The position numbers and the translations under genes were made by a program. This document shows positions 5,674 through 57,332 of a DNA stretch of 64,000 bases, in pieces (within the stretch, counting starts at the first letter, position 1; every line of letters starts with the position of its first letter). Source of the stretch: Xanthostigma xanthostigma (Eukaryota > Arthropoda > Insecta > Raphidioptera > Raphidiidae). Below the pieces are notes generated by a model, which saw only the letters and a list, made by a program, of their open reading frames with translations, was not told the DNA's origin and ran no database searches. The stretch is from positions 45,994,192 through 46,058,191 of the forward strand of contig OY754464.1 in NCBI GenBank assembly GCA_963575645.1, in the 5' to 3' direction.

Positions 5674-6609
5674 TTGGGTGTTTTTTAGAGTGATAGAAAT
5701 TTAAATTGAAAATTAATTAAAGTAAGATTGAAGCCAATTTTTTTTTATTTGAAAGATAATGTTATGACATTTAAGTTTTAAAAATATTTCCGATGTATGT
5801 CCACCACGACTAGCTTAAAGCTTTAAGGTACCGCATTCGATCAGATCAATTTTGGACCACTTTTTAGAGTAATTCAGGCCTTATTTCACCAATAACACGA
5901 GTTATGTTGACTTCCAAAGCGTCTATTGTTTTTGGTTTATATCAGCATAAACCAATGACTTCATATAACCCCGAAGAAAATAATCCGTATACGGCAATTT
6001 TGCTTGTTTACGTAGCCATTCAACCAGAAATGAGCTTTATCACTAAACACAATTTTTCGAGAAAAAAGTGGATCAACTTCGAGCTGTTCTAGGGCCCAAT
6101 CAGCAAACAAACGACGCTTATTATGGTCAAGTGGCTTTAGTTCTTGAACCAGTTGGATCTTGTATGGATGTAGACCCAGATCTTTACGCAACATTTTCCA
6201 TGTTGTGGGTGCACATATTCCAACTTGTTGTGAACGTCGACGAATCGACAAATTTCGATCTTCATTAACACTAGTACATACAGCGCCGATATTTTCTTCT
6301 GTACGTATAGTTCTTTGTCTTGTTGTAGTTTTTGCATCGAGTAGAGAAAATATTGCCTGAAATCTATCGATAGTTCAACGAATAAGCTGCTCTGATGGAC
6401 GATTATGTAAAGCATAAATACGAAGTGCTCTGTAAGTTTGGCAAATAGAACCCTGATTTTGAAAATAAATTCAACACTTGCGGCGTGAGTCTTTCCACGA
6501 TAATTTGTCAATGCTTACTGAAGAGAAATGTCAAAACAAGATGGCTTCTACCTTCTATCAAATCACAGTTCTCCCATCGAAAGTTCTAACACTCTAAAAA
6601 AATACCCGA
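5674..6609 (-). mobile_element. mariner-like element, internally deleted
   Basis: Terminal inverted repeats are present: the left end TTGGGTGTTTTTTAGAGTG pairs with the right end, which in reverse complement reads TCGGGTATTTTTTTAGAGTG. Both ends abut a TA dinucleotide (5672-5673 and 6610-6611), the expected Tc1/mariner target duplication. The 936-bp body holds a broken transposase on the minus strand (see the separate entry). It is short for a mariner (usually about 1.3 kb) because the middle of the gene is missing. Confidence 0.8.
5705..6510 (-). pseudogene. mariner transposase, broken and internally deleted
   Basis: The minus-strand fragments are out of frame with one another. An N-terminal part lies at about 6250-6510. 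The segment ending at 5961 contains SIRRRSQQVGI, DLGLHPYKIQLVQELKP, WALEQLEVDPLFSRKI and FSDKAHFWLNGYVNKQN. These match the helix-turn-helix and the first catalytic block of mariner transposases, where a DEAHF-type motif is usual; here the Glu after the first catalytic Asp reads as Lys. Further downstream (about 5790-5925), in another frame, VNITRVIGEIRPEL and ASRGGHTSEI match the usual C-terminus. The central part with the other two catalytic acidic residues is missing, so the gene cannot be active. Confidence 0.75.
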
Positions 6610-14595: not shown

Positions 14596-14679
14596 GTACG
14601 ACTCATCCGTAATGCTATCCTAGGCAATCTGAATGGTCTGTAAACCGTCCCAATATTTTGACCAACGGTGTATACAAAT

Positions 14680-17332
14680 GAGGAGCATTTTTTCAAAATG
14701 GCTTTTATCACATTTGTGTAAATTCCCAGGAGAGCATCAGATTATATAACAGCTTTATATATATAAAAAAAAGAGACTTTGCACTACGTAGCCGGCTGCG
14801 TTCTATATTTGTATCTATTTAATCAAGATTACCGAAATCATTTATACTAATTACCCTAGTAATTTATGTGGTAACCTTGGATATAAGCCGTTTTGATATA
14901 TCACTGCTGATAAAAGCTGTTTTGAATCAAAAGTTATGGATACAAGTCTGAAGACCAAGATCCAGGATAATAGGTAAAAAAACACCAATTTCAAGTTGAT
15001 TATCAAATAAAGGAATTACATTTTATTTTATTTTTATTAAAAAAGAACGTTCTTAACAAAAATAAGTGTTGGTTTTCTTCTCTTAAAAAAACTCAAAAAC
15101 AAAAAATTAAAAGAAACACAAAGAACAAAATAATTTTTCAGCCATAAACGTTTTAAACACATAAGCCGCAATCGTCTTCATTGCAATCGCATTCTTCACC
15201 TTCACTATAACTGTTTTTTTCTTCACCTTCATTTTCTGTATTCTCTAACAGTAATTTATCGTAAAATTTCATTTCAGGTATATTACGCCAGTTTTCATCA
15301 TATAGGTTCAACAAAGTTTTCACATCTTTTAATTTTTCTTTTTTTATTGGGTTGTGCAAATCCATCTCCTCTGGTAAAGCCATGATAACCTTCTTCCCTC
15401 TTTTGAATACACTTGCATACTTTCCTTCTGAATCATTTCTGTAAAATTGTTCCATTTTAATTTTTATTTCATTCATTTTTGAACCTTTTTCTATTTTAAT
15501 TCGCTTCATATTTTGAATTCCATTTAGTTTTCGCATTGATTTCAATGAAAGTTTTCTATAATCCAATAAACGCCAGTCATCTCCCAATTTTCTCACTACA
15601 CCAACCTGTTGATACAACTCACAGTACTCTTCTTGCAGTAAAATTGTAGGATTTTTCCGTAATTTTTTTTCGACACGACCGAACACTCTATCTGCTGGCA
15701 AATACGAATGGCCTCTCACCGGGAATACAACCAGAATATTTTCTAAAGTTGCAGGGGCTTGTCTATGCAGCCACAGGGCTAAACTGTTCATAACAATGTG
15801 GTTTTTGTTTTGCCCTCCGCAACCATCTGCGAAGAGCCGTAATGTTTTGCAATTTTTCGAAAAATCATAGTTATTCAAAAAATGATTCAGAGCAGAGGCT
15901 ACCTCATTTGCTCCACGGCCAGCGAGGTTTTCCGTCCAGGTATAAAAAACTGGATTTTCGGTTTTTATGTCGGTTATACAAAAGCAGTAAAAAGAAAGTT
16001 GTCGCAAATAAAACGCTTCTCCAATTGGAATTTTGGGTAAACTTTGAACTTGCTGCATATCAAAGCAAAGCGATAAAGATTCATCGCTAGTTTTGTTCAT
16101 TAAGAGATGAAATTGTTTGGAGCGCAATTTATGCACTCTCATCTCAGTTATGATTTTTGTTTTCAAAGATTGATCTGTGCAACGTTTAAATTCATTTTTC
16201 TTTCTAAAACAAAAACTGCACACATCGGATGCCGGAGAACCAAACCCGATATTAAAATCGTTGGAAAATATCTTTTGGAAAAATCCAAATTTTACCTTTA
16301 AATTTTCGTCAGTCTGTGAATTATAGATTTTAAACAACTTAGAGATGCTCATCTCTGCCGGAAGATATAATCTTTTTGATTTGTTTCTATTATAATGGCT
16401 CTCATGGGCCTTTAAACGACTTATAAATTTTCTTACATTTTCGCGCTTTTCAGCATTTTTTTCAGATCTACGATCTCCACCTCTATTTTCCTTAATTTCT
16501 TTCCCTTGCATCTTTGTATTTGCAATTTTTTGAACACGTTTTTGAGTAACGCTTAAGCTAACCAAAAACATATTTTGACACACTCTATAAAAACGATTTT
16601 CTTTTGTTTTCAACTTATATTTTACAACAACTTTCGTATTTTTATCCCTGCAATTTGGTTTGTACTTTTCCCTTCTTCTCTTAGGCTTATTTACCTCTAA
16701 ATAATAGGACAGTTTAATGTCTTGAGCAATTTTATCATGTCTATTGTATAAATCCTGTCGACATGAAATTACATCAGTTTTAGAAATTTTGAGGCAAAAA
16801 TACGTTTTTCCGTTGTGTGTGCAAGGACGTTCAAAGTTTTCCCCATCAGGAAAATGATCTTGATACCTTCAAAATCAAAAAAAAAACTTAAAATACTTGT
16901 ATACATAACCTTAAAATCTAGTCTTACCTCATAGCTTTTTGTTTTTCTCTTGTACTCAAATGTTTCTTCCTTTTTCGGCTACCTGTCGTGTTGTCACCAA
17001 CAATAACATCACTAGATACATTCAGGACACTGTCCATTTTGTTTAAAAACAAGCAACAAACAGAACACGAATCATAATATAATTACAATCAACTTTTCAC
17101 GCTGCATTAATTTGACAATTGGATTGAAGCTGCTTTGAAACATTCAGTTTGATGGATAAAAGCTGTTTTGAAAAAATCACTATTATTTACAATAGAATTA
17201 CTATACAATAAAAGACATTTTGAACAGAACTAACCGTTCTATAACATGTATTTATAGTAATAGAACACGATGACATCTATATCTTAATAGCAAAAGTTTT
17301 TGGATAAAAGCCGGTTTGAAAAAATGCTCCTC
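14680..17332 (-). mobile_element. Sola-like DNA transposon, copy 1
   Basis: The left end GAGGAGCATTTTTTCAAA-ATGGCTTTTATC and the reverse complement of the right end GAGGAGCATTTTTTCAAA-CCGGCTTTTATC agree at 28 of 30 positions. A motif close to GGATAAAAGCYGTTTTGAAA, matching the inner part of the terminal repeat, is iterated just inside both ends (14879, 14909, 17121, 17154), suggesting transposase-binding sites. A two-exon transposase gene fills the minus strand, and several AATAAA signals lie in the 3' flank of the gene (about 15020-15040). 4-bp target duplications and this type of protein are known for the Sola superfamily; that assignment is from memory and tentative. Confidence 0.8.
15153..17037 (-). 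CDS. two-exon DDE transposase, 607 aa, copy 1
   Basis: Exon 1 runs 17037-16928 (start MDSVLNVSSD, then a basic RKRKKH stretch), with donor GAG/GTAAGA. Exon 2 runs 16866-15153, with acceptor TTTTGAAG/GT. The 61-bp intron splits an Arg codon, and joining gives 607 residues. Around residues 150-230 is a predicted DNA-binding region (VTQKRVQKI, GGDRRS, and HYNRNKSKRLYLPAEMS). Cys253, Cys256 and Cys266 may bind zinc. Candidate catalytic triad: Asp306 in LCFDMQQ, Asp384 in FADGCGGQNKN, and Glu436 in VFGRVEKKLRK. The C-terminus is acidic and Cys-rich (CDCNEDDCGLC). The motifs GRGANEV and PVRGHSYLPADRVFGR place it in a family common in insect genomes, possibly Sola. The frame at 16613 begins with TTG inside exon 2 and is not the start. 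All motifs are intact, so it may be functional. Confidence 0.85.
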
Positions 17333-17333
17333 T

Positions 17334-19986
17334 GAGGAGCATTTTTTCAAAATGGCTTTTATCACATTTGTGTAAATTCCCAGGAGAGCATCAGATTATA
17401 TAACAGCTTTATATATATAAAAAAAAGAGACTTTGCACTACGTAGCCGGCTGCGTTCTATATTTGTATCTATTTAATCAAGATTACCGAAATCATTTATA
17501 CTAATTACCCTAGTAATTTATGTGGTAACCTTGGATATAAGCCGTTTTGATATATCACTGCTGATAAAAGCTGTTTTGAATCAAAAGTTATGGATACAAG
17601 TCTGAAGACCAAGATCCAGGATAATAGGTAAAAAAACACCAATTTCAAGTTGATTATCAAATAAAGGAATTACATTTTATTTTATTTTTATTAAAAAAGA
17701 ACGTTCTTAACAAAAATAAGTGTTGGTTTTCTTCTCTTAAAAAAACTCAAAAACAAAAAATTAAAAGAAACACAAAGAACAAAATAATTTTTCAGCCATA
17801 AACGTTTTAAACACATAAGCCGCAATCGTCTTCATTGCAATCGCATTCTTCACCTTCACTATAACTGTTTTTTTCTTCACCTTCATTTTCTGTATTCTCT
17901 AACAGTAATTTATCGTAAAATTTCATTTCAGGTATATTACGCCAGTTTTCATCATATAGGTTCAACAAAGTTTTCACATCTTTTAATTTTTCTTTTTTTA
18001 TTGGGTTGTGCAAATCCATCTCCTCTGGTAAAGCCATGATAACCTTCTTCCCTCTTTTGAATACACTTGCATACTTTCCTTCTGAATCATTTCTGTAAAA
18101 TTGTTCCATTTTAATTTTTATTTCATTCATTTTTGAACCTTTTTCTATTTTAATTCGCTTCATATTTTGAATTCCATTTAGTTTTCGCATTGATTTCAAT
18201 GAAAGTTTTCTATAATCCAATAAACGCCAGTCATCTCCCAATTTTCTCACTACACCAACCTGTTGATACAACTCACAGTACTCTTCTTGCAGTAAAATTG
18301 TAGGATTTTTCCGTAATTTTTTTTCGACACGACCGAACACTCTATCTGCTGGCAAATACGAATGGCCTCTCACCGGGAATACAACCAGAATATTTTCTAA
18401 AGTTGCAGGGGCTTGTCTATGCAGCCACAGGGCTAAACTGTTCATAACAATGTGGTTTTTGTTTTGCCCTCCGCAACCATCTGCGAAGAGCCGTAATGTT
18501 TTGCAATTTTTCGAAAAATCATAGTTATTCAAAAAATGATTCAGAGCAGAGGCTACCTCATTTGCTCCACGGCCAGCGAGGTTTTCCGTCCAGGTATAAA
18601 AAACTGGATTTTCGGTTTTTATGTCGGTTATACAAAAGCAGTAAAAAGAAAGTTGTCGCAAATAAAACGCTTCTCCAATTGGAATTTTGGGTAAACTTTG
18701 AACTTGCTGCATATCAAAGCAAAGCGATAAAGATTCATCGCTAGTTTTGTTCATTAAGAGATGAAATTGTTTGGAGCGCAATTTATGCACTCTCATCTCA
18801 GTTATGATTTTTGTTTTCAAAGATTGATCTGTGCAACGTTTAAATTCATTTTTCTTTCTAAAACAAAAACTGCACACATCGGATGCCGGAGAACCAAACC
18901 CGATATTAAAATCGTTGGAAAATATCTTTTGGAAAAATCCAAATTTTACCTTTAAATTTTCGTCAGTCTGTGAATTATAGATTTTAAACAACTTAGAGAT
19001 GCTCATCTCTGCCGGAAGATATAATCTTTTTGATTTGTTTCTATTATAATGGCTCTCATGGGCCTTTAAACGACTTATAAATTTTCTTACATTTTCGCGC
19101 TTTTCAGCATTTTTTTCAGATCTACGATCTCCACCTCTATTTTCCTTAATTTCTTTCCCTTGCATCTTTGTATTTGCAATTTTTTGAACACGTTTTTGAG
19201 TAACGCTTAAGCTAACCAAAAACATATTTTGACACACTCTATAAAAACGATTTTCTTTTGTTTTCAACTTATATTTTACAACAACTTTCGTATTTTTATC
19301 CCTGCAATTTGGTTTGTACTTTTCCCTTCTTCTCTTAGGCTTATTTACCTCTAAATAATAGGACAGTTTAATGTCTTGAGCAATTTTATCATGTCTATTG
19401 TATAAATCCTGTCGACATGAAATTACATCAGTTTTAGAAATTTTGAGGCAAAAATACGTTTTTCCGTTGTGTGTGCAAGGACGTTCAAAGTTTTCCCCAT
19501 CAGGAAAATGATCTTGATACCTTCAAAATCAAAAAAAAAACTTAAAATACTTGTATACATAACCTTAAAATCTAGTCTTACCTCATAGCTTTTTGTTTTT
19601 CTCTTGTACTCAAATGTTTCTTCCTTTTTCGGCTACCTGTCGTGTTGTCACCAACAATAACATCACTAGATACATTCAGGACACTGTCCATTTTGTTTAA
19701 AAACAAGCAACAAACAGAACACGAATCATAATATAATTACAATCAACTTTTCACGCTGCATTAATTTGACAATTGGATTGAAGCTGCTTTGAAACATTCA
19801 GTTTGATGGATAAAAGCTGTTTTGAAAAAATCACTATTATTTACAATAGAATTACTATACAATAAAAGACATTTTGAACAGAACTAACCGTTCTATAACA
19901 TGTATTTATAGTAATAGAACACGATGACATCTATATCTTAATAGCAAAAGTTTTTGGATAAAAGCCGGTTTGAAAAAATGCTCCTC
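17334..19986 (-). mobile_element. Sola-like DNA transposon, copy 2
   Basis: Second copy of the element at 14680-17332, same orientation, with the same terminal repeats (right end CTCCTC at 19981-19986), subterminal motifs and gene. Its right flank carries the AAAT that matches the left flank of copy 1. Confidence 0.8.
17807..19691 (-). CDS. two-exon DDE transposase, 607 aa, copy 2
   Basis: Exon 1 is 19691-19582 and exon 2 is 19520-17807. The predicted protein is identical to that of copy 1, including the candidate Asp306-Asp384-Glu436 triad, and the splice sites are the same. Lack of any divergence implies very recent duplication, gene conversion or an assembly artefact. Because it sits on the strand opposite to the host exon, it would be antisense to the retn transcript. 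Confidence 0.83.
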
Positions 19987-19990
19987 AAAT

Positions 19991-57071: not shown

Positions 57072-57332
57072 CAGGCCTGGACAAATGGCGGCCCGCGGGC
57101 CGGATCCGGCCCGCAGCGCACTTTAATCTGGCCCGCGAAGCATTTTAGACAATTTTCGAAAAAGCGGAAATAGAATGTGAGGACCTTTTTTTTGCTCTTC
57201 GAATATGGAAATAGAACGTGAGAATTTTTGTCAGCCATCCGGCCCGCGGTCAAATTTTCATCACCTATGTGGCCCGCGGTCAAATTTTCATCACCTATGT
57301 GGCCCGCCGATCAAAAGATTTGCCCACCCCTG
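57072..57332. mobile_element. hAT-like MITE, GC-rich, 261 bp
   Basis: Ends CAGGCCTGGACAAATG and (complement of the other end) CAGGGGTGGGCAAATC form imperfect terminal repeats of the CAGGGGTGGGCAA type known from animal hAT elements. The 8-bp CTATAGAC is duplicated at 57064-57071 and 57333-57340. Inside, GGCCCGCG-type motifs occur repeatedly, and a 30-bp unit is duplicated in tandem without difference (57241-57270 and 57271-57300). It is non-coding. Confidence 0.9.

Follow-up and report, generated by a model that had tools for sequence, protein, structure and literature searches.

A perfect head-to-tail transposon dimer with a single-base joint and one outer target duplication in Xanthostigma xanthostigma

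A DNA transposon occurring twice in direct succession was analysed in a stretch of 64,000 base pairs (bp) of the insect Xanthostigma xanthostigma (assembly GCA_963575645.1, contig OY754464.1, positions 45,994,192 to 46,058,191), hereafter the window. The assembly comprises 623,323,696 bp in 28 contigs; the window lies in contig C1 and contains no N. Region 14676-19990 of the window reads AAAT, element, T, element, AAAT (Table 1). The two copies, 2653 bp each, stand head to tail and show 0 differences. They are separated by a single T, and the AAAT target duplication is found only outside the dimer. All of this, including the outer limits, had been described correctly to the base in an initial annotation, and its view that the event is recent agrees with the lack of differences. 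A match at a period of 2654 ends before 14679 (A versus C) and past the end of the unit (T versus A); the repeated unit is therefore T plus element. Placing the element ends one base further outward (T...A) was considered and rejected, as the flanks then carry no matching duplication and the ends of relatives lie at GAG.

The inverted ends of the element are 30 nucleotides (nt) long, are complementary at 28 of 30 positions and read GAG...CTC. Where the right end of copy 1 meets the left end of copy 2, the 61 bp centred on the T form a near-perfect palindrome. Folded as a single DNA strand, positions 17295-17371 reached -28.6 kcal/mol (z -10), a value equalled by 0 of 200 shuffled sequences. 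Both breakpoints lie within 1 nt of the element ends. The ends are complete and the joint gained 1 nt, as in ligation of the signal-joint type, in which ends are joined with little loss or gain; joined ends are implied, as the initial annotation held.

Tandem copies without differences are a typical source of assembly errors, and the dimer is known here from the assembly alone. An assembly error, by which one copy in the organism would have become two in the assembly, nevertheless appears improbable: the 623 Mb are contained in only 28 contigs, the tract measures only 5.3 kb, and the error would have had to add the T and to fall exactly on the element ends.

Each copy carries a transposase gene on the minus strand, encoding 607 amino acids in two exons separated by a 61-nt intron, with splice sites predicted from the sequence. 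The main frame of 571 amino acids matched Pfam DUF7869 (E 1.3e-9, 38.3 bits, cut-off 26), and two further Pfam matches of this frame were below their own cut-offs. Exon 1 and two other frames of the window gave no Pfam match at E 0.1. Among solved structures no convincing match to the transposase was obtained (best E 0.91), and a literature search for DUF7869 returned no paper. Fold prediction from the single sequence of the protein (P0001) gave a mean predicted local distance difference test score (pLDDT) of 33.7, and the model was unusable. The window protein was compared with ten relatives from the same genome, the row of locus L030 having been dropped as a spurious frame. D270, D348 and D393 (P0001 numbering) were kept in 11/11 proteins and E400 in 10/11. 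These conserved acidic residues suggest a DDD/E transposase.

Its 30-bp inverted ends and 4-bp target duplications place the element among the eukaryotic transposons of the cut-and-paste type. Sola2 transposons have GRG termini; the inverted ends found here start with GAG, and the acidic residues form a possible DDD/E triad. The target duplication, AAAT, is a 4-bp A+T-rich sequence as in Sola2, and A...T also holds at the flanks of most relatives. For amoebozoan Sola2 elements, AWWT duplications (ATAT, AAAT, ATTT) have been described (PMC3627910). The element thus appears most like Sola2, an assignment made from its ends and target duplications and not from reference proteins; the Pfam label of the window protein, in contrast, is DUF7869 only. 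Titles and abstract beginnings returned by a literature search mentioned no dimers of Sola elements.

Joined ends were searched for across the assembly. A pattern consisting of TGCTCCTC and GAGGAGCA with a spacer of 0-24 nt matched one place, the dimer, and the same pattern read backward matched none; the structure of the dimer is beyond chance. A second pattern with looser ends and a spacer of 0-3 nt likewise matched the dimer only (control 0). The genome search for other dimers that the initial annotation had proposed accordingly yielded no second dimer with these two patterns, neither of which would detect relatives that have both different ends and longer spacers. The motif GAGGAGCANNTTTTCAAAA was found at 14 ends, dimer included except for its right ends, whose last base differs; by position the 14 correspond to 11 loci. 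With so few loci, one dimer among 11 says little about how frequent dimers are.

The end motif GAGGAGCATTTTTTCAAA occurred 10 times in the assembly, 4 times in the dimer and 6 times on contig C10. Since a control 13-mer matched at 17 places, all within contigs C1 to C9, the pattern scan reaches beyond the contigs that hold the family. One near-full-length copy on C10 (9974353-9976997) differs from the window copies at 9 of 2645 sites and has a stop codon within its reading frame. It breaks off 8 bp before its right end (L020 position 5998, C10:9976997) and gives way to A-rich DNA, the end having been lost or mis-repaired. A second copy on C10 consists of the first 969 bp only, with 3 mismatches and one gap. 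At each of the 9 sites that set the near-full-length copy apart, the window copies share one state. A mutual divergence as large as that from the C10 copy would have produced about 9 differences. As 0 were observed, the two copies are products of one element and not two family members.

In the protein search with the transposase, 76 of 582 candidates were scored. Among these, 100% identity was confined to the two window copies, and none was an intact monomer from which the dimer could have come. The dimer may thus be the only place in the assembly where an intact transposase of its subfamily is encoded. Six pairs of scored matches start less than 6 kb apart, the dimer and five others. The latter were rejected as dimers, being dissimilar copies or fragments of a single element as judged by identity and by the part of the query matched; the members of the pairs were not aligned with each other. 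On C10, which makes up 6.6% of the genome, lie 56 of the 76 scored relatives, 55 of them within 8.5-18.5 Mb, and the block at about 8.7-18.4 Mb may be a transposon-rich heterochromatic or sex-linked region. In viral contigs, 0 relatives were confirmed among 11 pattern matches.

As its main idea, the initial annotation had suggested the integration of a whole dimer. A ready-made dimer, either a dimeric circle or linear copies joined end to end with a 1-nt flank spacer, would be inserted by its outer ends and generate one AAAT duplication. It predicts exactly AAAT-element-T-element-AAAT, as observed, and arrays of Bari1 in Drosophila have been proposed to derive from concatemers formed on a circular transposon (PMC8834629). 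The same sequence, however, is given by joining of sister ends or by recombination with a circle, and an extra intermediate is required. Moreover, the two patterns found no other joined junction in the assembly, the 76 candidates scored included no intact source monomer, and abutting inner ends would presumably compete for cutting. This origin is a serious possibility but an unlikely one. Homologous recombination of a monomer circle, excised from the sister copy, into the resident copy would also account for the identity and the single outer duplication, with the spacer set by the circle junction. As both circle formation and recombination are needed, only a small probability is assigned to it.

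Target duplications of relatives were examined next to their ends. Locus L031 has perfect ends with AGTT on both sides. L035 is related more distantly and has GAGG ends; it showed an ACAT duplication, an equal 4-mer having been a condition of the search; of the seven loci tested in its set, it alone gave convincing ends. L036 had no ends, and L037, L039 and L040 yielded weak low-complexity pairs; all four were dropped. The apparent duplications at L038 and L041 were also dropped, since most of them are palindromic 4-mers that belong to long inverted repeats. With the strict motif only one end was found at L030 and at L034, and two further flank rows with 7 end mismatches were excluded as chance pairs. 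Against a 4-bp rule, the flanks match at 3/4 positions in L032 and at 1/4 in L029. The motif GAGGAGCANNTTTTCAAA was present at 12 ends from 10 loci, L031 and L032 contributing two each; the adjoining base was T at 10 ends and the fourth base out was A at 11. Judged from these flanks, a 4-bp A..T duplication is likely the rule of the family. L031 (C10:12294966-12297691) and L032 (12238840-12241565) are 2726-bp copies of a related family that point in opposite directions, are separated by about 56 kb and agree at 2723 of 2726 sites.

Since relatives carry 4-bp duplications, the missing AAAT between the window copies is meaningful. The argument of the initial annotation that independent insertions would each leave a duplication, and hence one between the copies, is upheld by AGTT and ACAT. 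Because the inner AAAT is absent, both two ordinary insertions and exchange at the duplications are disfavoured. Double insertions of class II transposons are reportedly separated by a target duplication. Two successive insertions at one target predict AAAT between the copies, where T alone is present, so that AAA would have to be lost later; this exact 3-bp loss would have to be combined with the arrival of two identical copies in a family whose members differ at 9 of 2645 sites. Among class II elements, head-to-tail double insertions, attributed to two integration events at the same place, have been called common (PMC12368964, citing McGurk and Barbash 2018), and the window dimer shares their order but has no inner duplication. 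Taken together, two insertions are very improbable here.

Local amplification following a single insertion, also raised by the initial annotation, is disfavoured in its simple form. Plain unequal exchange or slippage at the 4-bp outer duplication would leave AAAT, not T, inside. More generally, unequal exchange, slippage or microhomology-mediated duplication could have copied T plus element without transposase: the repeated unit is exactly that, and a hairpin, which the joined ends are able to form, might stall replication. A microhomology of 1 bp would, however, have had to meet both element ends by accident, and such a duplication is regarded as the most doubtful of the origins considered.

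Joining of sister ends at a resident insertion is tentatively preferred as the most economical origin, at somewhat less than an even chance. A single transposon with AAAT on each side would have occupied the site. Following replication, transposase would have brought together and cleaved two ends lying on different sister chromatids, the right end of one copy and the left end of its sister. The cut ends would then have been ligated to each other, in the fashion of V(D)J signal joints, rather than inserted elsewhere, and one flank base, T, retained at the left end would have become the spacer. One chromatid would thus carry AAAT-element-T-element-AAAT, with an empty site as the reciprocal product. 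As the breakpoints fall exactly at the element ends, cutting by transposase followed by end joining is favoured. The spacer T equals the base adjoining the left end at the dimer site, and T also adjoins the element at 10 of the 12 ends with the motif GAGGAGCANNTTTTCAAA, which supports this reading. Also in its favour, the window copies alone scored 100% to the transposase, and the two junction patterns matched nowhere else. Sister chromatid transposition is established for maize Ac/Ds termini (PMC3744419), and signal ends cut by RAG are ligated head to head (PMC8355894).

Several points weigh against joining of sister ends. The site occurs once in the assembly, in which no monomer or empty allele was found; the 601-bp left flank matched over its full length once and over short parts seven times. 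About two thirds of the bases in the window are A or T, so one T is weak evidence of a flank origin. Where paired ends are used in maize and by P elements, they enter a target and are not joined to each other (PMC3744419). The cutting mode of the transposase is presumed, and its structure model reached a mean pLDDT of only 33.7. Finally, an identical sequence would result if a dimer or circle had formed at another place and been inserted as a whole. With the junction, both outer duplications and both copies intact, the usual explanations differ in testable predictions: if a monomer allele exists at the site, the dimer arose by end joining on the spot or by recombination with a circle, and if none exists, it arrived ready-made.

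Joined-end dimers or circles with abutted inverted ends and a spacer of a few flank bases, usually 2-4 bp, are formed by the bacterial insertion sequences IS911, IS30 and IS21. The window dimer resembles them in its abutted inverted ends, putative flank-base spacer and head-to-tail order. In these bacterial elements, however, joining is a regular step, whereas a single case is seen in the genome analysed here. There is a slim chance that the family regularly uses a joined-end intermediate, circle or dimer, with one flank base, as IS911 and IS30 do, and that the dimer is its inserted form. The intact abutting ends would in that case be a hot donor.

Head-to-tail dimers of such transposons are already known, and the window dimer is a clean new example. 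Bari1 of Drosophila melanogaster forms head-to-tail arrays of roughly 80 and 6 copies in heterochromatin, each copy having lost its first two nucleotides; aberrant transposase activity and a circular transposon were proposed for their origin, and the review concerned knew of no comparable example among transposable elements (PMC8834629). Like Bari1, the window element is a cut-and-paste transposon in precise head-to-tail order, but it is present in two copies with complete ends and one added base, unlike a Bari1-type array. The ends of two elements also take part in hybrid element insertion, known from P, and in sister chromatid transposition, known from Ac/Ds, whose ends lie on sister chromatids (PMC3744419). 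In both cases the ends go into a target, whereas those in the window would have been joined mutually. In Arabidopsis, alternative transposition has been reported at a head-to-head transposon pair (PMC12312487), a related case with a different arrangement.

Table 1. Positions of the dimer and of its parts in the window
Feature	Position	Strand	Basis or remark
Outer target-site duplication AAAT, left	14676-14679		Sequence
Transposon copy 1, 2653 bp	14680-17332	minus (transposase strand)	Inverted ends, copy comparison
Copy 1 left inverted end	14680-14709	plus	Inverted-repeat search
Copy 1 right inverted end	17303-17332	minus	Inverted-repeat search
Single T between copies	17333-17333		Copy comparison
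End-to-end junction	17303-17363		Inverted repeat, genome patterns, folding
Transposon copy 2, identical to copy 1	17334-19986	minus	Copy comparison
Copy 2 left inverted end	17334-17363	plus	Inverted-repeat search
Copy 2 right inverted end	19957-19986	minus	Inverted-repeat search
Outer target-site duplication AAAT, right	19987-19990		Sequence
Transposase exon 1, copy 1	16928-17037	minus	ATG at 17037, predicted splice sites
Transposase exon 2, copy 1	15153-16866	minus	607 amino acids together with exon 1; Pfam DUF7869
Transposase exon 1, copy 2	19582-19691	minus	Copy 1 + 2654
Transposase exon 2, copy 2	17807-19520	minus	Copy 1 + 2654
End motif, two inner repeats, left part	14878-14902, 14907-14931; copy 2 17532-17585		Repeat search
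End motif, two inner repeats, right part	17120-17144, 17153-17177; copy 2 19774-19831		Repeat search

Searches of the window for RNA families and tRNAs gave 0 matches. An open frame on the minus strand at 5964-6374 looks by eye like a piece of a Tc1/mariner transposase and had no Pfam match at E 0.1. Short tandem repeats with GGCCCGC lie at 57104-57315 amid A+T-rich sequence, and a 172-bp unit is repeated 1.9 times at 88% at 1147-1468.

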